A stretch of DNA of 64,000 nucleotides from Oscillospiraceae bacterium (GTDB lineage: Bacteria > Bacillota_A > Clostridia > Oscillospirales > Ruminococcaceae), in contig JAGAJA010000073.1 in the NCBI GenBank assembly GCA_017829075.1, positions 4,342-68,341 on the forward strand. Reading direction: 5' to 3'. The position numbers and the translations under genes are program-made. Shown one piece after another: positions 10,767 to 50,798 of the stretch. The notes below the pieces were generated by a model. The model was not told where the DNA came from and did not search any database. It worked only from the letters and a program-made list of their open reading frames with translations. How positions within the stretch are numbered: position 1 is the first letter of the stretch; each line of letters opens with the position of its first letter.

Positions 10767-10857
10767 GGAGAAATACCCAAGTGGTGAAGGGGCTCCCCTG
10801 CTAAGGGAGTAGGTCGGCAAAACCGGCGCGAGGGTTCAAATCCCTCTTTCTCCGCCA
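10767..10857 (+). tRNA. tRNA-Ser (anticodon GCU) with encoded CCA
   Basis: Acceptor stem GGAGAAA pairs with TTTCTCC. The anticodon loop CTGCTAA carries GCT, a long variable arm is present as expected for serine, and the T-loop is GTTCAAATC. The discriminator base G is followed by CCA at 10855-10857. The last 23 bases double as the left attachment site of the downstream integrated element, which leaves the tRNA intact. Confidence 0.95.
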
Positions 10858-11628: not shown

Positions 11629-11649
11629 GGTGCTTCACGATGAAGCACA
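11629..11649. repeat. dispersed palindrome, copy 1
   Basis: GGTGCTTCACGATGAAGCAC: left arm GGTGCTTCA, right arm TGAAGCAC, one base off at the end. Lies 135 bases before the ATPase gene and marks the left side of the ATPase/nuclease cassette. Confidence 0.85.
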
Positions 11650-11709
11650 CTATATATGAAAAATGAACATTTTAATCGAAAGAAATTGTGCGTTTTATAA
11701 AAATACATA

Positions 11710-11738
11710 TTGCCATATAATGAAAAGTGTGATATAAT
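11710..11738 (+). promoter_or_regulatory. promoter of the ATPase/nuclease cassette
   Basis: TTGCCA (11710-11715), 17-base spacer, TATAAT (11733-11738), 46 bases before the start codon. Confidence 0.7.
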
Positions 11739-11784
11739 TATTTTATAAATTTGGGGCAGCCGGTTTTTCAGAGAGGAATAAAGT

Positions 11785-13074
11785 ATGAAACTGATTATAG
11801 ATAACATTGGAAAAATCAAGCACGCAGAGATTTCTTTTAATGGAATCACTGTCCTTGCTGGAGAAAATAATACGGGTAAGTCAACTGTTGGAAAAGCCTT
11901 GTTTTCCATTTTCCATTCATGTTTTGATATCGAGAATTATATATTACGACAAAAAATATTAAGGGCTCGACGTGAAATTACTAAGATCCTAAAAGCAAAT
12001 GTTTATGTCAAGGACGAATATGAAAGTTTTGATTTTTTTGAGACTTTAGATTTTAACCCTTTATACAAGTCATTAATAACAAATTTATTCGATAACCACA
12101 GTAAAGAGAAAGTCGTGTCGTTTCTTAAATCTTCTCTCCCTGATAGTTTATTCTCACGCATTGATTCGCATGATGAAGTCGTTGAAGCCATTGAAAACAC
12201 AATTGAGGAAATAAAGAATCTACCAAATAAGATGTATTATGTATCCAGAGTTTGGAATACCTTTAATTCGGTTTTTGAAGGACAATATTTAAATTTTAAC
12301 TCCGAAAGAGGGTATGTTGATGGTATAATAAAAGGGAAACGTGTTTCTGCGGAATTTAACGAAGATTCGTGTTCTGATTTTAATCTTGACTTTATTTTCA
12401 CTAATCAGGCAATACTTCTTGACACTCCCTCTATTCTTGATGATTTGTCAGAGAGAACTTACAGAAGTAATATAATCAAGTATACTATAGTTAAAAAGTT
12501 AAACTGCGATGAGAGATCGGATTCAGCAGATGTTGACTCAACAATCACAGCTCAGAAATTGTCTAGGATTTTTGATCTATTAAATGGTATTGTTCCTGGA
12601 AAGTTTCAGAAGTCTGAGTTTACACAAGATAGGTCTTTCCTATTTAAAGGTATGTCCAAACCACTTAAACTAAAAAATCTTTCACAGGGAATCAAATCTT
12701 TCCTTATTATTAAAAGATTATGTGAAAACGGCCAGTTTACCGAAAAGGACGTATTGATTTTAGATGAGCCTGAGATAAATCTTCACCCTTCATGGCAATT
12801 GGTATATGCTGAGTTAGTTGTCCTTCTCCAGAAAGAATATAATTTAACAATTCTTTTGAGTACACACAGTCCGTACTTTCTTTCAGCAATAGAAGCGTAT
12901 TCCAAAAAATATGATATTGTTAATAAATGCACTTTCTATCTCTCTGACAATGATGAAAATGGTAACGCATTATTCACAGATGTCACCAACAATACCGAGA
13001 AAATCTACACCAAGCTTGTAAAACCATTTGATACCATTGCCGAAATAGAAAGTGAGATGAGAGGCGATGATTGA
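11785..13074 (+). CDS. ABC/SMC-type AAA ATPase (AAA15/AAA21-like), defence candidate
   Basis: 429 residues. Walker A GENNTGKST at residues 26-34, ABC-like signature LSQGIKSF near 301, Walker B VLILDEPEINLHP near 323-335 and a switch His in STHSPYF near 358. This is the small OLD/AAA15 type with a long alpha-helical insert and no membrane segment. ATPases of this type commonly act as sensors in two-gene phage-defence systems. The ATG follows GAGAGGAATAAAGT. It overlaps the next gene by 8 bases, so the two are coupled. Base composition is much more AT-rich than the flanking transfer genes, indicating separate acquisition. No TOPRIM domain is present, so it is not an OLD nuclease. Confidence 0.85.
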   Translation: MKLIIDNIGKIKHAEISFNGITVLAGENNTGKSTVGKALFSIFHSCFDIENYILRQKILRARREITKILKANVYVKDEYESFDFFETLDFNPLYKSLITNLFDNHSKEKVVSFLKSSLPDSLFSRIDSHDEVVEAIENTIEEIKNLPNKMYYVSRVWNTFNSVFEGQYLNFNSERGYVDGIIKGKRVSAEFNEDSCSDFNLDFIFTNQAILLDTPSILDDLSERTYRSNIIKYTIVKKLNCDERSDSADVDSTITAQKLSRIFDLLNGIVPGKFQKSEFTQDRSFLFKGMSKPLKLKNLSQGIKSFLIIKRLCENGQFTEKDVLILDEPEINLHPSWQLVYAELVVLLQKEYNLTILLSTHSPYFLSAIEAYSKKYDIVNKCTFYLSDNDENGNALFTDVTNNTEKIYTKLVKPFDTIAEIESEMRGDD

Positions 13075-13639
13075 TAATCTAATTAGAAAAAGCCAGTTTT
13101 TTTTAAAATCAGTTAGCAACTTGCATGTAACGTCTAAAGACGATAGTGATAAGAAAAACATAGTGTACATGACAGACTCTATGCAGAAAGCTATTAATAT
13201 TGACAACGTTAAACTTGCATACTCAAATCAACATTTCCCAAATCAAAACACTTCATATAGGTCGGTTGACGCAATAGTTCAAACAGAACAAACAGTTTAT
13301 TTCATCGAATTTAAAAATGGAAAGCTATGTGGCGAAGAAAGGGCACGAATTCGCGAGAAAATATCAAATTCAATTTTGCTCTTCTCGGACATCTTAGGCA
13401 TCACTTTTAGTAATTTTCGTAATGAATGTGTATTCATTTTGGTGTATAATAAAGAAAAGAATTCTTTGCCTCAGCCTTCTCAACAACGTATAGCTGAGTT
13501 CGTTAACAAACGAAGTGAAAACGCTGAATGTCGCTTTGATTTCGACAAACTAAAGCCGTTCTTAGTTCACGATGTAAAAACATATACAAGAGAAGAATTT
13601 GAAGACTTTTTAGAAAAACAGGATTTTCTTCAGTACTAA
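13067..13639 (+). CDS. PD-(D/E)XK-like nuclease candidate, partner of the ATPase
   Basis: 190 residues. A candidate nuclease core is visible: SVDAIV with Asp68, then 12 residues on, VYFIEFKNGK with Glu81 and Lys83, the D...ExK arrangement of PD-(D/E)XK enzymes, placed on predicted beta strands. The rest is mixed alpha/beta and hydrophilic. I do not recognise a named family; it lacks the DUF4435 look of the PARIS effector and the HNH motif of PtuB. The start lies inside the ATPase gene. It is probably the effector of an ATPase-sensor/nuclease pair. Function is inferred from motif and context. Confidence 0.6.
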   Translation: MIDNLIRKSQFFLKSVSNLHVTSKDDSDKKNIVYMTDSMQKAINIDNVKLAYSNQHFPNQNTSYRSVDAIVQTEQTVYFIEFKNGKLCGEERARIREKISNSILLFSDILGITFSNFRNECVFILVYNKEKNSLPQPSQQRIAEFVNKRSENAECRFDFDKLKPFLVHDVKTYTREEFEDFLEKQDFLQY

Positions 13640-13659
13640 TTGAATAAGCATTTTAAACT

Positions 13660-13686
13660 GCAGGTGCTTCACGGTGAAGCACCTGC
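13660..13686. repeat. dispersed palindrome, copy 2 (perfect)
   Basis: A perfect 27-base palindrome with 13-base arms GCAGGTGCTTCAC / GTGAAGCACCTGC around one G. It begins 21 bases after the nuclease-like gene and is followed by TTCTTTTC, so it could also end transcription. It marks the right side of the cassette. Confidence 0.95.
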
Positions 13687-13697
13687 TTCTTTTCAAG

Positions 13698-14669
13698 TCA
13701 CATTCCCATATCACAATCCTCGTCCTCGTCGGAGTCCGGCTGCTCCTGCTGGGTTTCATACTGCTCAATGGGGTGGACGAGCGTCCGGAAGTGAAAACGC
13801 TGAATATTATACCCGCCTGCCCCAATTGTCTGAATAGTGGCGCTCCCTTTTTCGCCATAGATCACACCAGCTATCTCGCCATTCTGAATATGAAGTCCCT
13901 GCGCGTCAGTGATCTTGCCGACGTGCTCACCTATTCGCTGTGCAAGGTCGAGCATTCTACTGCGCATTTCACGCTCCATATCAGCTTCAAGATGTTGCTG
14001 CCGCTGAATAGGATCGTTGTATCTGCACATCGCGGTGACTACAGGACCAGCGAAGCTGCGCTTGCGCTCTGAAATGCTGTTATAATCCAGACTGCGCTCT
14101 TTCAGATAGCTCTCCATCGGCTGTCGTGGATAAACATTGAGAAAATCATAGTCGCTCATGCTCTGTATTCTATCCGCATACTTAGAATACACTGGAAGTG
14201 TCTTAACAGCTTCACGACGGGCAGCATATTCCTCAGTGCGGAGCTGCTGGACAAATTCGTGGTACTCGTCATATCGATTACTGAAAAAAGAAATGCTGTC
14301 CTGTTTCCATGCTTCAAAGAATTCCTTAATAACATCGGGTATCTCATTATCCATGAACGCTTGCTGGGTTTCAGCAGAACGGAGGTCTGCCTTTAGCTTT
14401 TCAATACGTTCGTCCATGTCCTGAATTTTCTTGGTAACGGATCTGATATCTTCTTTCTTCGAGTTAATGGAGAAGAAATCCCAGTACGCAAGCTCGTTTC
14501 CCCGGAGAGTTTCCTCCGTGTAAAGATTCGGATTGAGCTTGTACTTCTTCTCAAATTCACGTTCCTTTTTCTCCAGCATTGCCGTGTGTCTGCCCAGAGT
14601 AGAGGTAAGACGTTCACGCTTGCCGTATGCGTCGCTGATACGCTGAGAAATGTCTTTTGTGCTTAACAT
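13698..14669 (-). CDS. hypothetical coiled-coil protein of the integrated element
   Basis: 323 residues. The N-terminal ~125 residues are highly charged and coiled-coil-like (KKEREFEKKYKL, KKIQDMDERIEKLKADL). The C-terminal part contains DAQGLHIQNGEIAGVIYGEK and a basic/aromatic segment, ending in a strongly acidic tail (DSDEDEDCDMGM). Two other proteins of this element end in similar acidic tails, suggesting they share a partner or act together. It is the last gene of a leftward block that includes the TadZ-like ATPase. I do not recognise a family; there is no signal peptide or membrane segment. Confidence 0.75.
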   Translation of the reverse strand: MLSTKDISQRISDAYGKRERLTSTLGRHTAMLEKKEREFEKKYKLNPNLYTEETLRGNELAYWDFFSINSKKEDIRSVTKKIQDMDERIEKLKADLRSAETQQAFMDNEIPDVIKEFFEAWKQDSISFFSNRYDEYHEFVQQLRTEEYAARREAVKTLPVYSKYADRIQSMSDYDFLNVYPRQPMESYLKERSLDYNSISERKRSFAGPVVTAMCRYNDPIQRQQHLEADMEREMRSRMLDLAQRIGEHVGKITDAQGLHIQNGEIAGVIYGEKGSATIQTIGAGGYNIQRFHFRTLVHPIEQYETQQEQPDSDEDEDCDMGM

Positions 14670-14730
14670 ATTGCAGTAGCTCCTTTCAAATTACGGAAAG
14701 TATAATAATTTTTTCTTTTCGGAAAATATA

Positions 14731-15570
14731 TTAAATGATTAAAACAGGTTGAAGATTTATAAATCGGGTATTCTTTTTTCGACTACCCCATTTTTTACAA
14801 AGAAAAACCGCAGCATTTTTCGTGCTGCGGAGGATATTCCTGATAAAGTCTGCAACGCTGGTACTCCTGAACAAGTGCCGCATAACCCGGATAAATGAAA
14901 ACGCTGGTTTGCCTTGAAGCGAATCCTCGACCGCACACTTGCTCTCATAGCAGAGCACACCTGAGTTGACGATGATCCGGAACGTTTCTGCCCTGCGTGT
15001 TCCTCGTCTGTGCCGCAGCAAGTGGGATATGTATATCCGGTTATATCCGTAATCACCTTCACGGCGGACGTACTGCTGCTTGGCGATATAGCCTTGTTCA
15101 GTCAGTTCCTTGTTGCAGGATACGATAGTTCCCCGCGCCATGCCGGACAACTCCTGTATCATTGAGAGAGACAGCAGGCAGCGTCCTTCATCATTTGCGT
15201 GAATGCAATACAGCATAAGCAGGCGCAGACAGCTTTTGGGCAGCTCGACCGCCGAAACAGGCACAAGCACATATTTTTTCGGTGCCGATACAGCTTCAGA
15301 AAGAACATATGCGTTACATTTCTGGCGGTTATCCTTGAAACGCTGAATGCGCTCTGTGACTGCGCCTATTGCGTACAGTTCGTTGACGATTCTGGTTATG
15401 TTGGTGAGCTTGGTGCGTTCAGCTATCCGGGCATTTGAGATCACGGCGGTGCTGCTTCCGCTGGCTTGCGCAATAGAAGCAAGGAGAAACAGAACTTTGA
15501 CTGCGCCGGCGGACAGGTCTTTATTTATAAAGTCCTCGTTTACTCTGACGAATTGTCTGTTCTGTTTCAT
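14731..15570 (-). CDS. winged-helix DNA-binding protein, possible replication or transfer regulator
   Basis: 279 residues. Two HTH-like stretches are visible: DLSAGAVKVLFLLASIAQ with NARIAERTKLTNITRIVNEL, and later LSLSMIQELSGMARGTIV with SCNKELTEQGYI. Tandem winged helices are typical of plasmid/ICE initiator and regulator proteins. The C-terminal ~45 codons run across a strong intrinsic terminator at 14801-14830, so the true ancestral stop may have been upstream and the present tail (ending KKNTRFINLQPVLII) may be spurious extension. Function not certain. Confidence 0.65.
   Translation of the reverse strand: MKQNRQFVRVNEDFINKDLSAGAVKVLFLLASIAQASGSSTAVISNARIAERTKLTNITRIVNELYAIGAVTERIQRFKDNRQKCNAYVLSEAVSAPKKYVLVPVSAVELPKSCLRLLMLYCIHANDEGRCLLSLSMIQELSGMARGTIVSCNKELTEQGYIAKQQYVRREGDYGYNRIYISHLLRHRRGTRRAETFRIIVNSGVLCYESKCAVEDSLQGKPAFSFIRVMRHLFRSTSVADFIRNILRSTKNAAVFLCKKWGSRKKNTRFINLQPVLII
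14801..14830 (-). terminator. intrinsic terminator lying inside an ORF
   Basis: On the reverse strand, CCGCAGCA-loop-TGCTGCGG is followed by TTTTTCT. It sits within the 3' end of the winged-helix gene and upstream of the coiled-coil gene. Confidence 0.7.
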
Positions 15571-15588
15571 GTTGTTCGCTCCATGTTT

Positions 15589-16701
15589 TTATTTTTCGGC
15601 TGAAAATTCGGTTTCTTCTATCGGGGAGTCTGCCCATTCAGCAAAATCATTGTCGAAGATTTCTTCGTATTTTCCTATCTCAAACGGATCTGGCTCAAAG
15701 GGCAGGCAGATCACATCGTTCAGGTTGACCGAGAGAATTCCTCTGTATTTCTCAATAGTGGCTTCATCGGAGAAGTTGACAACAACAGAGTAGTTCACTT
15801 TGTTGAGGTCTGTCTGAGCGTCATAGATCATCGGCAGCTCATTCCATGATGTGCCTCCGACAACATATATTTTGTCGAAACCAGTGAAATCAAGCATTGA
15901 GGTCTGTCTATTGCCAAAGTCGTATATTTCCGCATTGTAGACCTTTTCAGTATCGGTTTCCGCAGCGCAGGCGTCAATGCTGCCGTTAATGGTGTACACG
16001 CCGTTCATAACGTTGATCTCATGGAATTCCTTCATCATTTCCAGCTGCTCAATACCATGGTTGTTTGTGCAAACAACAACACTTTCACCATCACGACTGT
16101 GGAAGTATTCCGCAAGCCGCAGTGCAAAAGTAGTCGTTCCGATACGGCTCTGCGCACCGACAACTGCGATATGCAACTCTGCCTGTGAGAAACGGGGCTT
16201 CTCTTTTTCCTTTTCAGCAATGAGAGCAGCTTCACGGGCTTCTGCAAAAGCGTCAAATGTATTATCAAACCTCCGCCATTTCTGCTTGGACAAGCCGGAA
16301 GTAAGGCACTCCTTGAGATCCTCCATCATTTTGGCAATATTGGTCTTATCGTCAACATCGGGATAATTTGCCACGATGTTCGTAAATCCGCTGTGTACCA
16401 GCTTGTCAAGGAAGCTGTCACCGGGATAGAACTGGTCGGCGTAGATAACGATATTAGCGTTGTCTTTCTGATAGGTTATTCCCTCGCAGAGGGAGATGAA
16501 TTCATCGTCCTTTTCCTGAAACGCCGAAACGTCAAGGACATAATGCGACTGATAGAAGCAGTTCTTCAGATCGCTCTTGATGAATAGAGAAAGCGACCAA
16601 TCATCGCCGGACATTTCACGGGGAGTTGCACCGATTTCAGCACAAATCTTACGGAGTATGCCTGCGTTTTCCTTGCGGGCAATGAGTAATGGGTTTATCA
16701 T
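15589..16701 (-). CDS. CpaE/TadZ-like P-loop ATPase
   Basis: 370 residues. A receiver-like N-terminal region (~150 residues) precedes a SIMIBI ATPase domain whose P-loop reads AVVGAQSRIGTTTFALRLA, a deviant Walker A. The order resembles CpaE/TadZ, which localise Tad/Flp pilus machines at the pole. In Clostridia elements such proteins accompany TadC-like and DUF4320 genes, as found here at 24.2-26.1 kb on the other strand. The classic second Lys of ParA (KGG) is missing. ATG follows GGAAAAG. Likely role: positioning or assembly of the transfer apparatus. Confidence 0.72.
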   Translation of the reverse strand: MINPLLIARKENAGILRKICAEIGATPREMSGDDWSLSLFIKSDLKNCFYQSHYVLDVSAFQEKDDEFISLCEGITYQKDNANIVIYADQFYPGDSFLDKLVHSGFTNIVANYPDVDDKTNIAKMMEDLKECLTSGLSKQKWRRFDNTFDAFAEAREAALIAEKEKEKPRFSQAELHIAVVGAQSRIGTTTFALRLAEYFHSRDGESVVVCTNNHGIEQLEMMKEFHEINVMNGVYTINGSIDACAAETDTEKVYNAEIYDFGNRQTSMLDFTGFDKIYVVGGTSWNELPMIYDAQTDLNKVNYSVVVNFSDEATIEKYRGILSVNLNDVICLPFEPDPFEIGKYEEIFDNDFAEWADSPIEETEFSAEK

Positions 16702-16726
16702 GGTTATCTTTTCCTTTCATTTGATT

Positions 16727-17281
16727 TTACATATCCCAATCCTCATCCTCTGAGGCTTGGGCGGCTTCACGTATAATTTCAGAAAAACGGCTCACTATGG
16801 TGTCAGCAGAGATTTCATTTTCAATGATATCTCCCTGCCAGAGAGTTCCGATTAGTCCCTTGTGATTTATATTGTTTTTGCATTTTATAGCTGTTCCGCC
16901 GTTTGTTTCCCATTCTTCAAGATTTTTGTTATAATCGTCCCAAAGGATATCGTCAGCACCGATACAGCCGGGAATGTATTCTGCTTTCGGTATACCCATG
17001 CGTGTAAATATTCTGTGTTCCCGGTCAATAGCAGGACAGTGCCTGTCAAGCCATTGATGTTTCTCATCGCAGCAATACGGCGGCTCACCGTCAACTGCGG
17101 CTGACAGAATGAAAACCTCATACTCTCCGTTTGCTTCTTCAGCAAGTCGGTTTGCTGCTTTTACTGCCTGCTCAAAAGGCTTCAATCCACTGAAAAACCC
17201 CTTTTCAAACATACGCTCAAGGTACTGCACCTCATCGTGAAACCTTGCCAAAGTTCCGTCCATGTCTATAAATAGTCGCAT
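16727..17281 (-). CDS. HAD-superfamily 5'-nucleotidase-like phosphatase
   Basis: 184 residues from the ATG at 17281, which follows AAGGAGG. HAD motif I is FIDMDGTLARF (nucleophile Asp and general-acid Asp), motif II is FILSAAV, and the acidic motif IV region is GADDILWDDYNKN. This matches the 5'(3')-deoxyribonucleotidase-like branch of HAD phosphatases, so a nucleotide or small phosphate ester is the likely substrate. The C-terminal tail EDEDWDM is acidic like those of other proteins in the element. Found in the same leftward block as the TadZ-like gene. Confidence 0.78.
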   Translation of the reverse strand: MRLFIDMDGTLARFHDEVQYLERMFEKGFFSGLKPFEQAVKAANRLAEEANGEYEVFILSAAVDGEPPYCCDEKHQWLDRHCPAIDREHRIFTRMGIPKAEYIPGCIGADDILWDDYNKNLEEWETNGGTAIKCKNNINHKGLIGTLWQGDIIENEISADTIVSRFSEIIREAAQASEDEDWDM

Positions 17282-17291
17282 AAAGCCCTCC

Positions 17292-18971
17292 TTAATCAAG
17301 CTCGATTGCTTTAATAGTATCAAATAATTCGTCGCTCATACCAGTTCGGAATCCCTTGAACCAGAGCCGGGGATTTGCAACAACGCCGATATTCTTCACG
17401 CTGGGACCGCCGTATGTATGAACACCCTGCGGCGGTTCTGGATAGGAAGCTTCTCCGGACATGAAGTAGGTCTTAATGCCCACATGCGGCACACATTCGT
17501 CACGGTTAAGAGAATGCCGCCACAGTCCTCCGTCATACTGGTCACTGTAATAACCGTCATGAGAATAGCCGACAATGAGATTATCGCTTATATCGTAAAT
17601 TGAACTGCCGATGTCATAATCCTCAAACTCCACCTCGCTCAGGCAGGTGAACTCCAGAAACAGTGTTATAGTTCCTGTATTACCCACACCATTGATTGAT
17701 GGGAACGGAAATCCATAGTCGTCCTCAAATTGATTTGTATCAATGATGTAGGCGATAGTGACAGCGCTCTGGTTGAATACCCTTGATTCGGTTTCGCTGG
17801 CAATATCCTGCTCGTCCATGTTCCAGACATCGTATATGAACGCGTCCTGAATACAGTCGCCGCAGCCGAGCAGATCAGCGTGAATTGCTGTCTTTCCGGT
17901 CAGCTCAAGGGTTATTCCTTTTTCGGGAACTCCCATGTCTTTTGAGCCATATGTGTACTGGTGTATTTCAGAAACGTCACCGCACTGCGATAAAATACCG
18001 TTACCGCCCGGAGCAAGACTGGAGCTGCTGACCGGAAGCTCAAAAAATCCCTCAAAATACACAAACAATGCAAGCTGAACCATATTATCAAGTGAAATAG
18101 TCCATTCGATTTGTGGGATTTCAGCGTCCGTCAGAGCCTTCTCTATTGCCGACTGAGTTTCCTCAACGTATTCCCACAGCTTTTCGTCGATTGCAAAAAT
18201 ATCTTTCCAAACGTCCGAACCGACTGTTTCCAGCGTGATGGACAGCTTATCATCAGTGCGCTCTGTTTCGATTTTTACAGCGCCGTCCATGTTTGCGTCC
18301 TCCATGATAGTTTTCAGGTTGGACACCTCAAAAAGATTGAGGTTTATTGCCCCCTTCCCGTTAATAATACTCCCCCATGAGCTTTCGATATACTCCTGTG
18401 CAGCTTCAGATGTTTCGGGAATACCGCCTACTCCATCGGCTATCTGGCTGTCTATATCCTCCGCAGCTTGTTTTTCGGTTACCTGCAGGAGAAATTCACG
18501 TGTCTGACGTATATGGTACATGGCAAGGAATTCCGGCAGATATATCTCGCCGCCGCCAATACAGGTGTATTCGACCGTCTGGGAACTGCCGTCAGCTGCA
18601 GTTACAATAAGCGTCTGGCGGTCAGCCGGCTTTCCGTCAACCTCGATCTTTTCAAAGGTGTAGCTATATGTTGGCATTTGCTCCATTGCACGGTTGTAGA
18701 GGAATATTTTCAGATTGTCGCTGTAATCGGAAATATTGTCAATTCCAGTGTCATCAGTGAATCGGATATTGCTGATTTCCGAAAAAGAAAGGTCTGTATC
18801 ATATTCCACAATGTAGCTGTCGAAAGCCTCCTGTGATTTTATTGCACGGAGCTGCTCCGCATAGTTCAGCATGATATTCTGCGCTTGCTCGATCTCGCTC
18901 TCATCATAGAGAATACGTTCCAATTTGTTGCGTTCGCTATTATTGCCGGCTTCGGTATACTCCTTACTCAT
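17292..18971 (-). CDS. large hypothetical protein of the element, possibly N-terminally truncated
   Basis: 559 residues from the Met at 18971 (weak AGGA site). The open frame continues upstream to 19085, but that extension translates two palindrome copies and is unlikely to be native. The protein is acidic and mostly beta/alpha mixed, with a Cys pair in LLGCGDCIQD; no membrane segment remains. Proteins of this size at the head of such transfer blocks often carry an N-terminal signal or TM, so loss of the original N-terminus at the palindromes is plausible. Function unknown. Confidence 0.65.
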   Translation of the reverse strand: MSKEYTEAGNNSERNKLERILYDESEIEQAQNIMLNYAEQLRAIKSQEAFDSYIVEYDTDLSFSEISNIRFTDDTGIDNISDYSDNLKIFLYNRAMEQMPTYSYTFEKIEVDGKPADRQTLIVTAADGSSQTVEYTCIGGGEIYLPEFLAMYHIRQTREFLLQVTEKQAAEDIDSQIADGVGGIPETSEAAQEYIESSWGSIINGKGAINLNLFEVSNLKTIMEDANMDGAVKIETERTDDKLSITLETVGSDVWKDIFAIDEKLWEYVEETQSAIEKALTDAEIPQIEWTISLDNMVQLALFVYFEGFFELPVSSSSLAPGGNGILSQCGDVSEIHQYTYGSKDMGVPEKGITLELTGKTAIHADLLGCGDCIQDAFIYDVWNMDEQDIASETESRVFNQSAVTIAYIIDTNQFEDDYGFPFPSINGVGNTGTITLFLEFTCLSEVEFEDYDIGSSIYDISDNLIVGYSHDGYYSDQYDGGLWRHSLNRDECVPHVGIKTYFMSGEASYPEPPQGVHTYGGPSVKNIGVVANPRLWFKGFRTGMSDELFDTIKAIELD

Positions 18972-19026
18972 AAGCGAAAGTCCTAATATAAAAACGCTTT
19001 GCAATCTAAAGGTGCTTTTTCGGCGA

Positions 19027-19083
19027 GCTGCGTCACGATGAACCATCTGCTGAATAGATGTTGGTGCATCACCGTGACGCACC
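19027..19083. repeat. dispersed palindrome, copies 3 (degenerate) and 4
   Basis: Copy 3 (19027-19047) keeps GCGTCACGATGAACCA. Copy 4 (19063-19083) has arms GGTGCATCAC / GTGACGCACC around one C. They lie immediately upstream of the large hypothetical gene. Confidence 0.75.
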
Positions 19084-19094
19084 ACCGAAAAAAT

Positions 19095-19240
19095 TCTTTT
19101 TTCGGTAATTGCGCCGCCGTAGGCGGCTCCGTACTCTGTACGGCAGGAATAGTGCGGTGTACCGCACTACTGGACAGCGCAGCACCAAAGGTGCTGCCGT
19201 TAGTGTACCATTAAATCTGTAACACTAATTTTAGTGTTAC
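19095..19240. other. cluster of hairpins before the mobilization genes, oriT candidate
   Basis: Four inverted repeats in ~145 bases: GCCGCC-GTA-GGCGGC (about 19111-19125), AGTGCGGT-GT-ACCGCACT (19151-19168), GCAGCACC-AAA-GGTGCTGC (19179-19197), and GTAACACTAA-TT-TTAGTGTTAC (19219-19240). The last lies 31 bases before the RHH gene and 540 before the relaxase gene. Positions fit an origin of transfer and/or an RHH operator. No nic site can be assigned by eye. Confidence 0.5.
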
Positions 19241-19270
19241 CCCAAATATGGTATTATGAAAGGAAACACA

Positions 19271-19732
19271 ATGGCAAGAAAAAATCCAGAACGCTCGGTT
19301 GTCCTACCACAGGACATGGCGGAAGCACTTGATAGGTATTCGTCTAAGAAAAGGATAACTACATCACAGGCAATCAGGCAGTTTATCGAAAAGGGATTAT
19401 CCATCGAAAGCTATGAGCAACACCAGACTGAAATCCGAAACTACATTCGCGAGGAAATCGAAACCGTTCTGCCGATAGTAATAAAGCCGTATATGGAACG
19501 ACTTATAAAAATGCAGGCAGTCGCTACTCGTGTGTCGTCCGCTGCTTTGCAGTGTAACGTATCCGTGCTCGCTGAGAATTACATTGACTCAGCAACTCCG
19601 GAAGAAATACTTGCGAACGCTCTAAGGCTTTCTACCAGAATAACCAAGACCAAACCTAAATCCGACGCTGAATATCTTGCAGAAGCTCGTGAGTGGTTGA
19701 GTGCGGATTTAGATAAACCGAACGATACATAA
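19271..19732 (+). CDS. ribbon-helix-helix mobilization accessory protein
   Basis: 153 residues from the Met at 19271 (AAAGGA six bases upstream; an in-frame ATG 15 bases earlier has a poorer site). The N-terminus MARKNPERSVVLPQDMAEAL followed by KKRITTSQAIRQFIEKGL is a ribbon-helix-helix fold: one basic beta strand and two helices. Such MobC-type proteins bind oriT and help the relaxase, or repress their own operon. The hairpin at 19219-19240 is a possible operator. The relaxase gene follows after palindrome copy 5. Confidence 0.75.
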   Translation: MARKNPERSVVLPQDMAEALDRYSSKKRITTSQAIRQFIEKGLSIESYEQHQTEIRNYIREEIETVLPIVIKPYMERLIKMQAVATRVSSAALQCNVSVLAENYIDSATPEEILANALRLSTRITKTKPKSDAEYLAEAREWLSADLDKPNDT

Positions 19733-19735
19733 GCA

Positions 19736-19756
19736 GGTGGTTCACGGTGAAGCACC
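19736..19756. repeat. dispersed palindrome, copy 5
   Basis: Arms GGTGGTTCAC / GTGAAGCACC around one G, between the RHH gene and the relaxase gene. A GTG inside it opens a longer frame for the relaxase. Confidence 0.85.
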
Positions 19757-19779
19757 CCCTAGAAAGCAAGGTGAATATT

Positions 19780-21684
19780 ATGCCCAAAATAATATATAAG
19801 CAGCAGCACGTTGGAGATAACGGTCGTAAATTCTCCGCTTCACGAAATGCTCATTATGTAAAGTACATTGGTGAGCGAGAGCACGTCCTAAAACCCTCAC
19901 ATGAAACCAATCTTGTCAAGTATATGGGAGAACGGGAACACGCTGCGAAGCGTATTAACAAAATGGTTAAAGAGATCGAAAATGACGAACTTGTTACTTA
20001 TGATGTTCAAAGCCACGGTAAAGCGGAGTATGATGTAAACATAACCAAAGCTTCTGAGGAAATGTTTACAGAGCCGGAAAATGGGCTTTTCGGAGTGATT
20101 AATGGGAAATACTCGGACAATTACAGCACAGCAGAAATGCAGAAATATGTCCGTAAAATATCCACGCCGCACCGGAATGTATTTCACAGTGTTTTCTCAT
20201 TTACACCGGACAGCGCAGAAGAAGCTGGGCTGAGAACCCTCGACGAATGGGAAAGCTGGGTAAAATATCATATCAGCGATATTGCCAACGGCATGAACAT
20301 GAAAATTGAAAATATTGAGTATCTTGCGGCTGTTCATCTCAAGGAGGGACAGCCGCATGTGCATATAATGTGGTGGGACAAATCACAGCAGGTGCTTATA
20401 AATAAAGTTGATCCTCTTGTATGCGATAAGATCCGTATTGATGTTATGAGAAGCACTTACCGTTCCCTGTTCACCGAAATATACAATAAGGAAGAAATTA
20501 TGCGTCGGAGCCTGCGAAAGCAGATCGGTGAATATACTCTCCAACACGTTATAAATGGTGCTGACGACAACTATGCTGCCAATATCGCGGCAGGAATATA
20601 CCGTGTTTATCGTGTTCTTCCGCCAAAAGGTCAGTTAAAGTACAAGTTCATGAAATTGGAAAAAGCGGCAAAACAGGAGCTTGATAATCTGACTCACTAT
20701 ATCATTGATAATAATCCTGAATTCAAGGCGCAGTATGATGAAATATGTGAGCTTCGCTTAATGTATAATCAGCTGCTTCACAGTGAGGAATCCCGGTATG
20801 GCAACTTAAAAATCACTAAGTATATGGATCAGGTCAATGATAAGATCGAAAATGCTGTTGGAAATGAAATTCTTCGGATCATCAAGGCAGAGAAAAATGC
20901 CGGACACTTTGACAAAAGAAACTATCCTGATTTTGAACCACCCGAAGATAACCATGACAATTGGCAGGAGGCACATGAAGAAAATGGGGTGTCTCACGGT
21001 GACGCACCCCCGAATTCCTTTATCCGGTGGTCAGCAAAATTTAAAGCAGCACGTAAAGCTGCTGATAACGGCGACATTCCTAAAGCGCTTGATCTGTATT
21101 CACAGGAAGCAGCCAAGGGTAATATCCTTGCAAAATATGAGATTGCCGACCTTCGCCGCAAGAAACTATGCGAGGGCAGTGAAACTGAGATTTTCCGTGA
21201 AGCTCTGAATGGTTTTCTGGAAATCGAACCAACGACAAGGCTGAAACCCTATGTGCAATATCGCATAGGCAGAATGTACTATGACGGTTACGGCACAGAA
21301 CGGAATTTAAAGGAAGCATTTGACTGGCTGAAAAAATCAGCAGACGGAGGAAATCACCTTTCCGAATATATGATCGGAAAAATGTGTTTGTTTGACAAAG
21401 ACCATCGTGATTTGGATACAGCCAAAAAGTATCTGACCGCCGCCGCTGACTCCGGCAACCAATATGCACAGCAGCTACTTGATAATCAAACTGCATGGAC
21501 GCAGACGCAGGTCGTTAAACTGATGGGTTCAATCGGGCGGCTTCTTTCTCAGAATGTTGAGAGCAGCAGAGCTGCCTTGCATGAATGCTCAGCAGCAGTG
21601 TTCGGCCGTGGAGATCTGAGCAAGGAGCAAATCCGCGAACTTCTTCTGAAAATGCAGGACAAGGAAAACACCGCAGAAATGTAA
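19780..21684 (+). CDS. MOB-family relaxase with C-terminal Sel1-like repeats
   Basis: 634 residues from ATG 19780 (AAGGTG six bases upstream). The N-terminus has two tyrosine segments HYVKYIGEREH and LVKYMGEREH, where the nicking Tyr is expected. The metal-binding HxH motif is in EGQPHVHIMWWDKS near residue 190. This matches MOBP-type nicking enzymes of Clostridia elements. Residues ~403-410 (VSHGDAPP) are encoded by a palindrome copy lying between the catalytic part and the tail. The tail contains Sel1-like repeats (YRIGRMYYDGYGTERNLKEA, YMIGKM...AKKYLTAAADSG), probable protein-binding helices. Confidence 0.85.
   Translation: MPKIIYKQQHVGDNGRKFSASRNAHYVKYIGEREHVLKPSHETNLVKYMGEREHAAKRINKMVKEIENDELVTYDVQSHGKAEYDVNITKASEEMFTEPENGLFGVINGKYSDNYSTAEMQKYVRKISTPHRNVFHSVFSFTPDSAEEAGLRTLDEWESWVKYHISDIANGMNMKIENIEYLAAVHLKEGQPHVHIMWWDKSQQVLINKVDPLVCDKIRIDVMRSTYRSLFTEIYNKEEIMRRSLRKQIGEYTLQHVINGADDNYAANIAAGIYRVYRVLPPKGQLKYKFMKLEKAAKQELDNLTHYIIDNNPEFKAQYDEICELRLMYNQLLHSEESRYGNLKITKYMDQVNDKIENAVGNEILRIIKAEKNAGHFDKRNYPDFEPPEDNHDNWQEAHEENGVSHGDAPPNSFIRWSAKFKAARKAADNGDIPKALDLYSQEAAKGNILAKYEIADLRRKKLCEGSETEIFREALNGFLEIEPTTRLKPYVQYRIGRMYYDGYGTERNLKEAFDWLKKSADGGNHLSEYMIGKMCLFDKDHRDLDTAKKYLTAAADSGNQYAQQLLDNQTAWTQTQVVKLMGSIGRLLSQNVESSRAALHECSAAVFGRGDLSKEQIRELLLKMQDKENTAEM
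20988..21008. repeat. dispersed palindrome, copy 6, inside the relaxase ORF
   Basis: Arms GGTGTCTCAC / GTGACGCACC around one G. It is 21 bases, a multiple of three, and keeps the relaxase frame open, encoding about GVSHGDAPP. Confidence 0.9.
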
Positions 21685-21695
21685 CATCGTGAACA

Positions 21696-21754
21696 GGTGC
21701 GTCATGATGAAACACCTACCCAGATTGAATGTTACTGCTTCACGATGAAGCACC
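21696..21754. repeat. paired palindrome unit, copies 7 and 8
   Basis: Copy 7 (21696-21716) has arms GGTGCGTCAT/ATGAAACACC. After CTACCC and a short spacer with AATGTTACTG comes copy 8 (21734-21754), with TGCTTCA/TGAAGCA arms. The same two-palindrome unit recurs at 22577-22635, on the other side of the MntA-HepT genes. Confidence 0.85.
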
Positions 21755-21764
21755 GGCATTCCTC

Positions 21765-21793
21765 TTGATTTTTGCATTATCCTGTGTTATAAT
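21765..21793 (+). promoter_or_regulatory. promoter of the MntA-HepT pair
   Basis: TTGATT (21765-21770), 17-base spacer, TATAAT (21788-21793). Confidence 0.7.
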
Positions 21794-21814
21794 ATAAGTA
21801 CAGAAATGCAGATA

Positions 21815-21835
21815 AACCGTTTCATGGTGAGGAAC
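21815..21835. repeat. dispersed palindrome, copy 9 (degenerate)
   Basis: ACCGTTTCATGGTGAGGAAC keeps the core TTCATGGTGA but has lost the outer GGTG/CACC arms. Lies in the mRNA leader of mntA. Confidence 0.5.
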
Positions 21836-21867
21836 TCTATATTAAGATTTTGAAAGGGGCTGATTGT

Positions 21868-22182
21868 ATGAGAAAAATCTATACGATTGAAGAAATCCGA
21901 AATAAAGTCAGACCAATAGCTGAGAGATATGGCATAGATACGGTATGGCTGTTCGGTTCTTATGCTCGTGGAGAAGCCACTGAAAATAGCGATGTTGATT
22001 TGCTGGTTGGTTACAAAAAAGGCATGGGATTACAATTTTTCGGATTTGAAGCAGATCTTGAAGACGCGTTTGATGTTTCTTTAGATGTCCTTTCTGATGA
22101 TGGAATTTATAATCCTGTCTTTCAGGAAAAGCATTCGAAGTTTATTAGAAATTTTGAAAGGGATCGGGTAAGGTTGATATGA
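21868..22182 (+). CDS. mntA: MNT-domain nucleotidyltransferase, antitoxin MntA
   Basis: 104 residues from ATG 21868, after GAAAGGGG. The minimal nucleotidyltransferase motif GSYARGEATENSDVD gives Gly30-Ser31 and metal ligands Asp42 and Asp44 (GSX10DXD). MntA proteins neutralise HepT toxins by transferring AMP groups to a Tyr near the HEPN active site. It overlaps the HEPN gene by four bases (ATGA), the normal coupling in these operons. It is bracketed by paired palindromes and followed by its own terminator, so it is a self-contained cassette. Confidence 0.92.
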   Translation: MRKIYTIEEIRNKVRPIAERYGIDTVWLFGSYARGEATENSDVDLLVGYKKGMGLQFFGFEADLEDAFDVSLDVLSDDGIYNPVFQEKHSKFIRNFERDRVRLI

Positions 22183-22568
22183 GCAATTATAGCGCGTTAG
22201 AGCATATGCTGGATCACTGTCTTGCCATTGAACAGTTCATGAATGACTTTGAATGCAAGAACGTTGAAGATTTTATCATGAACCGTATTCTTCATGACGC
22301 AGTTGTGATGAACCTTCTAGCAATCGGTGAGCTAACCACTCATATGTCAGATGATTTCAAGGCTTCATCCCGGGATAAGATAGATTGGAGATCACTTAAG
22401 CAGCTTAGAAATATCATTGCACACAGATATGGAGCAATCCAATTTGAAATCATTTGGAATATCATAAACGATATTTTACCAGATATCAAGTCATTCTGTT
22501 CGGAGCAAATAAAAACAATGTCATCTGAATCAGAGGATGAGGGAGAGGACATTACTCCAGAGATCTGA
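22179..22568 (+). CDS. hepT: HEPN-domain ribonuclease toxin HepT
   Basis: 129 residues, all-alpha. The HEPN active-site motif is RNIIAHRYG: Arg77, His82 and Tyr84, the RX4HXY form in which Tyr is the target of AMPylation by MntA. HepT toxins cleave tRNA or mRNA when not modified. Such pairs serve element maintenance or phage defence. The acidic C-terminal tail (SESEDEGEDITPEI) is reminiscent of other tails in this element. The start codon overlaps the mntA stop. Confidence 0.92.
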   Translation: MSNYSALEHMLDHCLAIEQFMNDFECKNVEDFIMNRILHDAVVMNLLAIGELTTHMSDDFKASSRDKIDWRSLKQLRNIIAHRYGAIQFEIIWNIINDILPDIKSFCSEQIKTMSSESEDEGEDITPEI

Positions 22569-22576
22569 CATAATCA

Positions 22577-22635
22577 GGTGTTTCACGATGAAGCACCTAC
22601 CCGCAGCAAATGTTACTGTCTCATGGTGAGGCACC
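22577..22635. repeat. paired palindrome unit, copies 10 and 11
   Basis: Copy 10 (22577-22597): GGTGTTTCAC/GATGAAGCACC. After CTACCC, a spacer with AATGTTACTG, then copy 11 (22615-22635): CTGTCTCA/TGAGGCACC. It is a direct repeat of the unit at 21696-21754, with the same spacing and spacer words. Confidence 0.85.
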
Positions 22636-22657
22636 CCTAAAAAAACAGAATAAACTC

Positions 22658-22690
22658 AGGCGCATTTAAGTAGTGCGCCTGTTTTATTAT
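22658..22690 (+). terminator. intrinsic terminator after hepT
   Basis: AGGCGCA-TTTAAGTAG-TGCGCCT followed by GTTTTATTAT. Confidence 0.85.
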
Positions 22691-26943: not shown

Positions 26944-27488
26944 AACTTGTGCATAAGCTCATAGTCTTCTATACTCATGCGGCTTGGATCGTAAGCATAG
27001 GGGTTATCATCTTCATCCAGGTCGGGGTGATGTCTGTCAAAAGGCAGTCCGATTTTGTGTGCAGTCTGTTCAGATTCAGCCATTTTTTCGTAAGAGCTGT
27101 AAAGCTGTTTGGAAATATCCATATAAAGGTGAGCCTTGTATTCCGGTTTATCGTCCAACTTCTTACGGAAATCATCAAGCTGTTCTGGAGAGCAGTATTT
27201 CAGTTCTCCGTCATAGTCATTGGATATCATGTGTTCTAGCAGTTCGTCAAGTGCCTTGCTTACTTCACTGGAAAACATCGTTCTGTCAGCGGAAACAAAG
27301 GCATTTTCTATTTCGCCGCTGTAATAGAGCATGTCAGACTGCGCATGATAGTTCAGCTCAAGCTCAGCGCTCTGGAGATCCTGATCGTCCTCCGCCGTTG
27401 CTACACGCCCTCCTCTGTATCTTCGTCCTCGCCGGACGAAGATACATCGGAATGCTGTTCGGAATTCTGCTGATACATTCTGCGCCAT
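26904..27488 (-). CDS. hypothetical acidic protein of the element
   Basis: Up to 194 residues. The first ~30 codons overlap the preceding gene and look out of character, so translation may begin later (Met at about residue 53, MLYYSGEIENAF, or an alternative codon). The body is acidic and helical and contains HHPDLDEDDNPYAYDPSRMS near the C-terminus. It ends with the acidic tail EDSEGNEPEM, like other proteins of this element. No family recognised. Confidence 0.6.
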   Translation of the reverse strand: MAQNVSAEFRTAFRCIFVRRGRRYRGGRVATAEDDQDLQSAELELNYHAQSDMLYYSGEIENAFVSADRTMFSSEVSKALDELLEHMISNDYDGELKYCSPEQLDDFRKKLDDKPEYKAHLYMDISKQLYSSYEKMAESEQTAHKIGLPFDRHHPDLDEDDNPYAYDPSRMSIEDYELMHKLRQEDSEGNEPEM

Positions 27489-28060
27489 TCATTTAAGACA
27501 TCAGGTTTTTGCAGACAGAAATAGAAAAACTCGGAGATCTCGTCGTTGGTAAGCTCATCACCTATAATCTCGGTGACTTCCTTGCGCTTCAGCGTGATTT
27601 TCTTTGCATATTGATTTGCCGTTGTTTTTTTCTTTTCAGTAATGTTTGGCTGTGTGATATGCTGCTCTGGATTAATTGTGTGGGCAGTTGATGTCTGCTG
27701 AGAGTTACCGTCAAGGAGCTCTATTATATCGCTTTCTGAAACGAATTTCAGATCGGCAAGCATTTCAGCCTGTTTCGCTCTGCGTTCTGCGGCTTTGGCT
27801 GCCTTTCGTTCGCGTTCCGGCTGAAAGTATGCTGCCAGCTCATCTGCACTCGCAGCTCTGACTTCCTCCGGCAGAAGATACCGGGGGAGTTTATCAATCG
27901 AGCCAGTAGACCAGCTTGTAGGACGCAACTTTTTTCCGCAGTCCTCGGACAAGGCGAGAAAGCCCGCTTTTGCCCACTGGCGCTCGGTTCTCAGTTCACT
28001 CCGGAACTTCTGTTTGGACAGGAGCAAGGAAACGGAGCTGGTCCATCTTTCACTTTTCAT
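27401..28060 (-). CDS. hypothetical charged protein of the element
   Basis: 219 residues from the Met at 28060, which follows AAAGGTGATTAT. An N-terminal segment rich in Ser, Arg and Trp (KSERWTSSVSLLLSKQKF) precedes a long Ala/Glu/Arg helix (ERERKAAKAAERRAKQAEML) and a C-terminal domain with DELTNDEISEFFYFCL. It ends in an acidic tail (SSSGEDEDTEEGV). Likely DNA- or protein-binding within the element's maintenance module; function unknown. Confidence 0.65.
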   Translation of the reverse strand: MKSERWTSSVSLLLSKQKFRSELRTERQWAKAGFLALSEDCGKKLRPTSWSTGSIDKLPRYLLPEEVRAASADELAAYFQPERERKAAKAAERRAKQAEMLADLKFVSESDIIELLDGNSQQTSTAHTINPEQHITQPNITEKKKTTANQYAKKITLKRKEVTEIIGDELTNDEISEFFYFCLQKPDVLNEWRRMYQQNSEQHSDVSSSGEDEDTEEGV

Positions 28061-28087
28061 ATAATCACCTTTTTTATTTTCGGCAAA

Positions 28088-28113
28088 GAAAAAGTCCCTC
28101 GCATTCACGAGGG
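28088..28113 (-). terminator. intrinsic terminator after the zinc-ribbon gene
   Basis: On the reverse strand CCCTCG-TGAATG-CGAGGG is followed by ACTTTTTC; it overlaps the stop region of the gene at 28105. Confidence 0.8.
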
Positions 28114-28587: not shown

Positions 28588-29466
28588 ATGACACCTATAG
28601 AAAACATTACATTTGCGCAGGCACTTGACGAGTACATATGCAGTAAGGATCTGCTCCTTTCGCCCTCAACAGTAAGGGGTTACAGGACTTTACAGAAAAA
28701 CTGTTACGGTGCAATAAACGACATCTTACTGGCGGACTTAAACGAGAAAACCATTCAGAAATGGGTGAACTCTCTTGCCGCCAAATACTCGTCCAAATCT
28801 ATCCGGAATCAGGTTGGATTGCTGACGGTCGTGCTACACCAAAACGGAATTACTCTGAATATGAAATCAGTTACGATGAAGCCGAAAATCAAACCGGAGT
28901 ATGTTATTCCGTCCGAAAGCGAAATAATAAAAATAGCTCAGGTGGTACGTCATACATCTATCGAGATACCTGTTATCATTGCATTAACACTTGGATTGCG
29001 CCAATCGGAAATAGCAGGATTGCGATGGGAAAACTATGACGGAACATATATCACTATCAACAGTGCGATTGTTCCTGATGAAAACCACAAGCTAGTTGAA
29101 AAATGTGAAACAAAGAGTTATGCCAGCCAAAGGACTATTGAGGTACCTGATTACCTCAAAAATTTGCTAGATAATGCTTATCATTTCTCTGATCGTATCA
29201 GCCCTCACAGCCCATTCTACATATTGAAGCATTTCCATCGTATTTGCGAGGATAATGGACTTCCAAAATATACAATGCATTCTCTCCGCCATGCAAACGC
29301 AAGCACAATGCTAAAGCTCAACATACCGGATAAGTACGCAATGGAAAGAATGGGACACTCTACTCCGACAATGCTGAAGCAGGTATATCAGCACTTGTAC
29401 CGGGAAGAACAGACCAAAGTTGCCAATAAGATGAATGACTATTTTAACCAGATTCTAAAGCGCTAA
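28588..29466 (+). CDS. int: tyrosine integrase of the tRNA-Ser element
   Basis: 292 residues after AGGAGGATATATA. N-terminal SAM-like core-binding domain (residues ~8-90), then the catalytic domain with Arg in GLRQSEIAGLRW, HxxR in MHSLRHANAS, GH in MERMGHSTPTM and nucleophile Tyr in KQVYQHLY. The lambda-Int arm domain is absent, so it is a short form. Its gene ends 43 bases before attR, the usual position for an element entering a tRNA 3' end. It catalyses integration and, with an unseen excisionase, excision. Confidence 0.95.
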   Translation: MTPIENITFAQALDEYICSKDLLLSPSTVRGYRTLQKNCYGAINDILLADLNEKTIQKWVNSLAAKYSSKSIRNQVGLLTVVLHQNGITLNMKSVTMKPKIKPEYVIPSESEIIKIAQVVRHTSIEIPVIIALTLGLRQSEIAGLRWENYDGTYITINSAIVPDENHKLVEKCETKSYASQRTIEVPDYLKNLLDNAYHFSDRISPHSPFYILKHFHRICEDNGLPKYTMHSLRHANASTMLKLNIPDKYAMERMGHSTPTMLKQVYQHLYREEQTKVANKMNDYFNQILKR

Positions 29467-29509: not shown

Positions 29510-29532
29510 TTCAAATCCCTCTTTCTCCGCCA
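29510..29532. repeat. attR: 23-bp copy of the tRNA-Ser 3' end
   Basis: Exact repeat of 10835-10857 (TTCAAATCCC...TCCGCCA). Confidence 0.95.
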
Positions 29533-44206: not shown

Positions 44207-45769
44207 TTAGAGCAATCTTTCCTCTTTAGGAGAGGGCAGGAATGTTCTTCCCAGACTTTTGGTAATGCAGTATTCACAGCCGCACAGCAGTTCAGAGGGT
44301 ATCGTGACCGTCACTTCTACCTTTGTATCATACACCGTCACCGACTTGACATACTGTGCTATGAATCTCTTGCATTCGGGAATATCACGCTCATAGACGT
44401 ATTCAGACAGCTCAGAGATAGCTTCATATAGCTTTTCCTCGGATATATTTATGTCCGTGTCCCTCATGGTGAGGGATTTCTGACGTTCCAGACAAGTTTT
44501 TTCATCAGCCTTTATTCTGGCGAGAATATCCCGGAAGTCATCTTCTATCATACCATCAGCGACAGCGTTTATTATGTTATTCCGCTTGATTTTGAGCCGT
44601 TCCAGTTGGAGAGTTATCTCGTTCAGTTCATCGTTGACATAGGTATTGTAGCTGTTCACCTGTTCCTTTATGCCGCCGATTATCTCCGGTATTCTGTCCA
44701 CGTTGAATATGTACTGCTCCAGAATTTCTAGCACATATTCTTCCAGCTTATCGTGACGAATTTCCTTGTTGCAGCATTCCTCGGACAGCTTGTGCTGACA
44801 GCGGTAGGAGCGATAGGTGTAGCCCTTGCCGTTCTTGCGCTGATTTCCGGTCATTATCGCACCACAATGACCGCACCTTATCAGTCCGCTTAGCAGATAT
44901 GGGTGTTTGGCGGTGTTTGCTCCGGGGGACAGCTTGTGCTTCGCTAATATTTCAGCGGCTTTGTTGTACTGCTCCTCGCTGACTATTGCAGGACAGCCGT
45001 TCTGAATACAGATGACTTCTTCCTCCGGCTTTGCTTTATGGCGGTTATGCTTACCGTCCCATTGATTATAGACATAGTACCCGGCATACTTCTTGTTCCT
45101 TAGAATGCTGTACAGAGAATTTTTGGCGAATTGATTGCCGGATTTAGTCAGCCAGCCCTGTTCATTTAGGTGTGCTATAATCGTGTTGTAGCCGTAGCCG
45201 TCCGTGTACATCTCAAATATCTTTCGCACGATTACAGCTTCATTCTCGTTGATTATCAGCCGCTTTGTGTCAGGGTCTACGTCATATCCTAATGGTGGAA
45301 TACCGCCGTTGTGCAGACATTTTCTAGCCCGTACCTTGAATCCCTTCATCACCTCTCTGCCGAGGTTACTGCTGTAATATTGCGCTAATAGCTCAAACAT
45401 ACCTTCCATTAGTTCACCCTCTGGAGTGTCATCAGTAGGCTCTAGCACAGATATTACCCTCACACCGTTTTTGTCGAGTATAGCCTTTGCAACGGTGCTG
45501 TCGAAGCGATTTCTAGCGAATCTGTCATATTTATGCACAATTACTACGCTGAAATCACCGCTCTTGCTGTCCTCTATCATCTGGTTGAATTTATCACGCT
45601 TAGCGGTCGTGGTAGCGGATTTTGCACGGTCTATGTATTCCGAAATAATCTCATAGCCTTTCTCTCTTGCATACCTGTGAATAGCTTCCTGCTGGGCTTC
45701 AATAGACGTTTCGTGCTGCATATCTGAGCTGAATCTCGCATACAGCACAGCTTTTCTGGAATTGTTCAT
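44207..45769 (-). CDS. large serine recombinase (Ccr-like), full length
   Basis: 520 residues. Resolvase domain with catalytic Ser in [10 protein letters not shown] (residues 9-18) and [10 protein letters not shown]; a recombinase domain ([17 protein letters not shown] ... [19 protein letters not shown]); a zinc beta-ribbon with CGHCG and [10 protein letters not shown]; then a coiled coil (residues ~390-450) and a C-terminal beta unit. All catalytic and zinc parts are present. It probably integrates and excises the element at tRNA-Pro. It is the promoter-distal gene, next to attL. Preceded by GGAGGTACAAGCC. Confidence 0.93.
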
Positions 45770-50767: not shown

Positions 50768-50798
50768 GATTTTTTCCTTTCATAGAATACGCCCTGAC

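Follow-up and report, generated by a model that had tools for sequence, protein, structure and literature searches.

The DNA analysed here, a 64,000-base stretch of contig JAGAJA010000073.1 from an Oscillospiraceae bacterium (positions 4,342 to 68,341 of the forward strand; hereafter the window), contains an 18.7 kb element at a tRNA-Ser gene, with exact 21-bp repeats at 10835–10855 and 29510–29530 as its ends. This element carries a set of short palindromes. Our preferred reading, in which we place about even confidence, is that they are a new family resembling the repetitive extragenic palindromes (REPs) and the Rickettsia palindromic elements (RPEs), residing inside one lineage of conjugative or mobilizable elements, and that the copies recombine together, since each copy is both a direct and an inverted repeat of all the others. 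The lineage would consist of integrative conjugative or mobilizable elements with a ribbon-helix-helix (RHH) gene and a MobP3-like relaxase, in a genus of the Clostridia. The first-pass annotation had offered protein sites, a mobile palindrome of the REP or RPE kind, or recombination sites; it is the second of these, with recombination between copies, that we favour.

Each copy has 9-nt arms and a 3-nt centre, in place of the centre of 1–3 bases proposed at first. The pattern GGTGNNTCA-N(1-3)-TGANNCACC matches exactly at six places in the window, every one in 13663–22597, and nowhere in 100 shuffles; the copies stand far above chance. The remaining copies were found by scans guided by the core TCA-NNN-TGA. 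Where eleven copies were first counted, ten are firm and one more, at 21816, is weak; all are inside 11629–22635. No other stretch of the window has a comparable palindrome set. In a loose palindrome scan of the entire window the density is not above that of shuffles, so isolated weak matches carry no meaning. The copies, and the two larger units that some of them build, are as follows.

11629–11649, + strand: palindrome GGTGCTTCAcgaTGAAGCACA, 5′ of the AAA gene, at the same place as L055:7150
13663–13683, + strand: palindrome between convergent genes, the sole terminator-like copy, at the same place in L055 and L054
19027–19047, + strand: palindrome, left member of a doublet with 36-bp spacing, between two homology blocks
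19063–19083, + strand: palindrome, right half of that doublet, adjoining the conserved ATTCTTTTTTCGG 5′ of the RHH gene
19736–19756, + strand: palindrome 3 nt past the RHH stop codon and 23 nt ahead of the relaxase start
20988–21008, + strand: in-frame palindrome in the relaxase linker, encoding GVSHGDAPP; relatives have 1–3 copies
21696–21716, + strand: palindrome, first half of doublet 1, 11 nt past the relaxase stop codon
21734–21754, + strand: palindrome, second half of doublet 1
21816–21836, + strand: weak, possibly decayed copy ACCGTTTCAtggTGAGGAACT, ahead of the MntA gene; low score, uncertain
22577–22597, + strand: palindrome, first half of doublet 2, 8 nt past the HepT stop codon
22615–22635, + strand: palindrome, second half of doublet 2
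21694–21754, + strand: doublet unit of 61 bp to the left of MntA-HepT, 77% identical to 22575–22635
22575–22635, + strand: doublet unit of 61 bp to the right of MntA-HepT

Six of the ten firm copies thus make three doublets, with start-to-start spacings of 36 or 38 bp. A copy-like stretch at 20772 was rejected as a family member. It encodes LLHSEES in a conserved segment of the relaxase, where L344, H345 and S346 are invariant across 25 aligned relaxases, and because these residues are conserved it is regarded as a coding coincidence. The chromosomal parts of the window and its second (tRNA-Pro) element are free of copies, as first stated. Two TCA-NNN-TGA palindromes do occur in the second element, at 44458–44478 inside a recombinase gene and at 50793–50813 at the 3′ end of an open reading frame (ORF); these have other arms, without GGTG/CACC.

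That the palindromes are ordinary intrinsic terminators is very improbable. The copy at 13663 combines a stem of 12 pairs with a T-rich tail, but it is the only one of the ten firm copies on the terminator-like list, and terminators were rejected as the general identity for this reason. In addition, a separate terminator-like site lies at 22657–22681, past doublet 2.

Further tests were run on relatives, the nearest reachable genome being G001 (G, C and L numbers are our handles for genomes, contigs and loci). Its aminotransferase is 90% identical to the product of the chromosomal gene at 7725, and on this one gene it is taken to belong to the same genus. A wider pattern, GGTGCNNCANNNTGNNGCACC, is matched exactly in 5 of 43 genus genomes, and its backward control in one. 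The 22 exact places are on eight contigs, every one of which has homologues of element genes, and the chromosome-wide spread that would have spoken against the original proposal is not seen; on the G902 contig the homology is a fragment of the 17292 gene only, near its single copy. With up to one mismatch, all 16 places in G001 are on the element contigs C13 and C17. At two mismatches chance matches are common, the forward and backward counts being 30 and 15 in G001, 14 and 3 in G918, 18 and 2 in G905, and 8 and 20 in G911. One such copy, G905:C14:1218, falls within a different relaxase gene, which shares 71% identity with the one in L084.

The window-type pattern is found in none of 148 family genomes and in one of 394 order genomes. 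Once one mismatch is allowed, matches appear in 3 of the 43 genomes of the genus and in 9 of 396 from the family, where the backward control matches in at least four; of those nine, only G001 seemed to have the context of a member. The wider pattern is present in 4 of 138 family genomes, and the three besides G905 did not seem member-like in their 3-kb contexts. A class-wide relaxase search returned 1 of 391 genomes, G001 itself. Comparison of the element with phages by megablast gave nothing informative, the 101-bp doublet gave one chance-like match against plasmids and phages, and the window relaxase found remote relatives only in the same sets; a relaxase search in viral contigs was uninformative. 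The window-type pattern is present in 27 stretches of viral contigs, none with a window-like array.

Among the related elements some occupy different, in part overlapping, sets of positions, as the first annotation had anticipated, and the stems occur in two dialects: GGTGCTTCA/TGAAGCACC in the window and GGTGCGACA/TGTCGCACC in related elements of the genus. G911 and G918 have homologues of the left part of the window element (61–88% protein identity; AAA gene 43%). The 3′ end of the 13698 gene has one copy in the window and in G911 (L055:5103) and three in G918 (L054:163, 200 and 239), and the copy 5′ of the AAA gene is common to the window and G911. Homologues of the RHH protein (45–86%) and the relaxase (53–55%, main segment) are found with GGTGCGACA/TGTCGCACC copies in G001 and G918:C20. 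A copy sits beside ATTCTTTTTTCGG 5′ of the RHH gene in the window and at L056:4080, L058:9013 and L059:8385, and between the RHH and relaxase genes there is a single copy in the window and in L059, a pair in L058 and no more than a short remnant in L056. L056 and L058 are 89–98% identical and are not independent. No palindromes with the TCA core of the window were seen in L001–L003, which have the other dialect; judged by length and content, L001 and L056 are one contig, while L002 corresponds to C17 and L003 to C13 of G001. Both dialects are present in G918, on separate contigs, and dialect therefore seems tied to the element; G001 and G918 are metagenome-assembled genomes, with the usual doubt on contig membership.

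The 48 copies of the window and related elements share a symmetric centre. Its form is Y-N-R in 47 of 48, with a first base of C or T in 48/48 and a last base of A or G in 47/48. Covariation was scored on 32 distinct copies (33 chosen of the 48). The matched arm changes first reported were not upheld within the window, where 1 of 90 cells is doubly changed and 331 of 500 shuffles reach this; across elements they stand, with 25 of 288 cells doubly changed against a shuffled mean of 11.3 (0/500 shuffles) and a covariation score of 0.233 against 0.089 (0/500), values that the shuffles overstate because the copies are related. Stem pair 6 is GC in 15 copies, CG in 6, UA in 6 and unpaired in 5; pair 7 is UA in 15, AU in 11, GC in 1, GU in 1 and unpaired in 4. 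Where the sense strand is known the stem mismatches are G-U 11, A-C 16 and other 15, and where it is not known they are 1, 4 and 3. Nothing in these counts suggests selection for pairing in RNA. The symmetric centre together with the lack of a G-U preference points to a symmetric DNA duplex and away from an RNA hairpin.

These features bear on the main rival explanation, to which we give a fairly low probability, that the palindromes are sites of a dimeric DNA-binding protein of the element, for example in ParB-type partition or KorB-type silencing, with protein and sites changing together to give the dialects. This proposal is kept in play above all by the symmetric centre; that G-U is not favoured over A-C mismatches agrees with it, as do the 16 places on the two G001 element contigs. 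Both C13 and C17 encode ParB (PF02195), with ParA assigned on C13 by Pfam and on C17 by eye. The half-site TGCTTCAC resembles the parS half, TGTTTCAC; parS is not known to have a central base, whereas the palindrome here has one. A close ParB homologue is encoded on G918:C63, but the window element has only a C-terminal remnant of ParB, and the listed ORFs of the G905 region are without ParB by eye. At the scan cut-off no copy is near parAB: the 17,999 bases of L088 contain none, and the only one in L090, at 18770, is 5.4 kb past parB. Most copies lie past stop codons and not at promoters. The RHH protein was rejected as the factor setting the dialect, since it is 86% identical between the window and L056, with the N-terminal end nearly identical by eye, although their dialects differ, and no protein covarying with dialect was identified.

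The positions of 40 copies were surveyed with hand-set gene borders. Twenty-three start between −1 and 23 nt past a stop codon, a distance of 15 nt or less for 20 of these; six are inside genes and 11 elsewhere, and 13 of the 40 end 12–25 nt ahead of a start codon. Such places would suit RNA hairpins between operon genes that tune translation or mRNA decay, like those E. coli REPs found ≤15 nt from a stop codon, for which PMC12306157 describes a stop-codon effect. This explanation is nevertheless unlikely, because G-U does not exceed A-C on the sense strand, the symmetry of the Y-N-R centre would be unexplained if it were a loop of 3 nt, and the six copies inside genes do not fit it.

The preferred reading, a REP- or RPE-like family, draws on likenesses to both groups. 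In common with RPEs, the palindromes are found between genes and in frame inside genes, in several families. Most copies are 21 bp, or doublets of 57–61 bp, and a longer repeat of ∼45–100 bp, which may correspond to the RPE unit, is present as well. RPEs are described in PMC10969869 and PMC3733652 as ∼150-bp repeats of Rickettsia genomes that end in CGTC. The palindromes here differ in being mostly 21 bp, in residing in conjugative elements and in forming arrays with a 36–39 bp period, and the RPE tag CGTC/GACG is near the end of only 3 of 47 sites. As in REPs and the bacterial interspersed mosaic elements (BIMEs), palindromes of 20–40 bp occur singly and in pairs close to stop codons, whereas the REP tag GTAG/CTAC is within 6 nt of the end at only 4 of 47 sites, no intact Y1 transposase of the RAYT kind was found in the four carrier genomes, and the copies cluster in elements where REPs are genome-wide. 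With both tags and an intact transposase lacking, the family is not filed under either. Several dispersed palindromes in a transferable element also recall parS and the KorB operators of RK2, and the odd-length centre is like that of the KorB operator oligonucleotide TTTTAGCGGCTAAAA in PMC11790492; unlike those sites, the palindromes here lie mostly past stop codons, none near parAB, with no co-varying protein identified. The symmetry kept under sequence change and the location just past stop codons are features of integron attC sites as well. The 21-bp copies are shorter than attC, come without an integron integrase and are found also inside genes.

Differences in copy number and gene content coincide with the palindromes, and they count towards the preferred reading. 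In-frame copies are present in the relaxase linker of the window, in a long gene of G918 and G001, and in the relaxases of L084 and L217. Linkers were scored by peptide motif in the best 120 of 437 relatives of the relaxase, where 28 have one copy, 83 two and seven three, with spacings of 13 amino acids (n = 20), 31 (n = 73) and 19 (n = 4). P0042 and P0045 are without landmarks and have no clear linker copy; in P0032 and P0049 the linker looks like a fusion that joins the front half of one copy to the back half of another. In G918:C63 two in-frame palindromes are 378 bp apart in the long gene, the later part of which is a methylase by eye on G001. In G001:C13, which is 94–98% identical around this place, the intervening coding segment is absent and a 39-bp palindrome tandem stands instead with the frame kept. 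Homology of the window to L054, L087 and L089 stops at 18914–18915 and that to L056, L058 and L059 begins at 19093–19127, and the doublet at 19027–19083 is in the joint of these two blocks. Beside this joint the window ORF at 17292–19085 (− strand) is a homologue of a 650-amino-acid ORF of L054 with ∼100 N-terminal residues missing, and the break adjoins the doublet at 19027.

The longer repeat of ∼45–100 bp has several hairpins, with the palindrome at its end, and occupies four kinds of site, of which two are within relaxase genes.

L056:4040–4104, L086:6135–6199, L084:8944–8987, L085:295–357 and L090:18769–18869, also in L058: longer repeat, partly inside genes

Dedicated recombination sites, acting as cassette joints for a putative recombinase in an attC-like role, would explain part of this and are improbable. 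The MntA-HepT pair is flanked by two doublets; the relaxase part absent from L056, L058 and L059 begins close to the 20988 palindrome; the DUF3849 gene and the palindrome directly 5′ of it are found in different contexts in L056/L058 and in L059; and the segment absent from G001:C13 is bounded by two palindromes in G918:C63. No recombinase candidate beyond the attachment-site (att) integrase turned up, although no systematic search was made, and ordinary short-repeat recombination gives the same joints. Alignment ends fall at palindromes in 24 of 167 cases, where 3.3 are expected for random places and 14.0 after random genes, and 7 of 2000 trials of the gene-end control reach 24; this enrichment over gene ends is modest. 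In L083 a gene resembling the DUF3849 one by eye also has a palindrome. The DUF3849 contexts, the longer repeat and the alignment ends likewise count towards the preferred reading.

In the REP- or RPE-like reading the element would contain no dedicated transposase. Copies would come to rest at nearly harmless places, either past a stop codon and ahead of the following ribosome-binding site or, with the frame kept, within linkers of proteins, and might spread by slippage on the single-stranded DNA of the transfer intermediate. Homogenisation within an element, by conversion or slippage, could then give rise to the dialects. It is also conceivable, though unlikely, that the palindromes are working joints for swapping, doubling or dropping genes, gene parts and linkers, with the dialect of each element keeping the exchange within it or between elements of like dialect and away from the chromosome.

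Several observations weigh against the preferred reading. The Y1 transposase (PF01797) has no match in G001, G918 or G911 and one broken gene, on another contig, in G905. No clean pair of empty and filled sites with a target duplication was found, and the gap between RHH and relaxase genes in L056 retains its short remnant. Positions common to elements whose relaxases are 53–55% identical suggest long retention, perhaps function, and the near-universal symmetric centre fits selection by a dimeric DNA-binding protein. Two of the five covariation measures do not exceed shuffles (double-changing pairs 2 against 2.6; pair types 8 against 7.7), and with respect to the joints the comparisons behind the modest enrichment are not independent. 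Finally, TGTGCGACATCGTGTCGCACT, with two mismatches, is present in G911 at C62:7521 (L215) and C81:8864 (L216), one repeated locus, and 31 element-protein queries found no homologue in the 16–17 kb around both copies, so that the family is perhaps not strictly confined. Confinement to elements thus has good support for exact copies and in G001, and is not proven for decayed copies such as these two looser ones.

Searches of open-licence papers in PMC, at the level of titles and abstract openings, found no description of this palindrome family in conjugative elements. Repeats of the REP and RPE kind are mainly known from chromosomes. If the reading is correct, the spread and use of such palindromes would become open to study on small, movable DNA, and they would provide a handle on the reshuffling of cargo and protein linkers by conjugative elements of gut Clostridia.

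The bounds and remaining genes of the element are the following.

10835–10857, + strand: left att repeat (3′ end of tRNA-Ser), exact 21-bp match at 29510
29510–29532, + strand: right att repeat, exact 21-bp match to the left repeat
28588–29466, + strand: tyrosine integrase of the element
19256–19732, + strand: RHH gene, 5′ of the relaxase gene (RHH_1 16.3 bits, cutoff 20.5), with relatives
19780–21684, + strand: MobP3-like relaxase with a Sel1 repeat, Sel1 above cutoff
21868–22568, + strand: MntA-like and HepT-like genes with a doublet on each side, NTP_transf_2 and HepT-like above cutoffs

The att pair is also seen as a longer imperfect repeat pair. The integrase scores 22.6 bits against the integron integrase model, under the cut-off of 265. 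The relaxase scores 23.2 bits with Relaxase PF03432 (cutoff 24.6) and 109 bits with NF041499 (cutoff 150); since the NF041499 and RHH_1 scores are below their cutoffs, MobP3 and RHH are to be understood as ‘like’ only. The MntA model NF047752 gives 41.6 bits, under its cutoff of 60. At 27401–28108 on the − strand lies the ParB-like C-terminal remnant, of which the ParB_N part is missing; ParB with ParB_N is found in the related G001 elements. An Rfam scan returned tRNA, plus one match under its cut-off.

Look-alike repeats exist in viral contigs. In L091–L210 the sequence GGTGCGACANNNTGTCGCACC, mostly with AT-rich centres, is present in at least 120 stretches, often 5′ of a gene that looks by eye like a terminase and with TTGAC-like boxes nearby; it resembles a regulatory site belonging to a group of phages. 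The viral copies with GGTGCGACA arms (at least 120 stretches, 136 sites), often 5′ of a gene cluster of 72 ORFs that is terminase-like by eye, were rejected as members of the same family; their centres are mostly rich in A and T. No genes common to the elements and these GGTGCGACA-arm contigs were found at a limit of 1e-4; at a limit of 1 the best among the matches listed is a 49-amino-acid ParB-like stretch, in two contigs, at 2e-5. Repeats of GGTGANTCAC in 10-bp steps occur in L006, L009, L016 and L031, which are viral loci and one bacterial locus, and are followed by repetitive linker-like codons in three of the four; these may be iterons inside replication genes.

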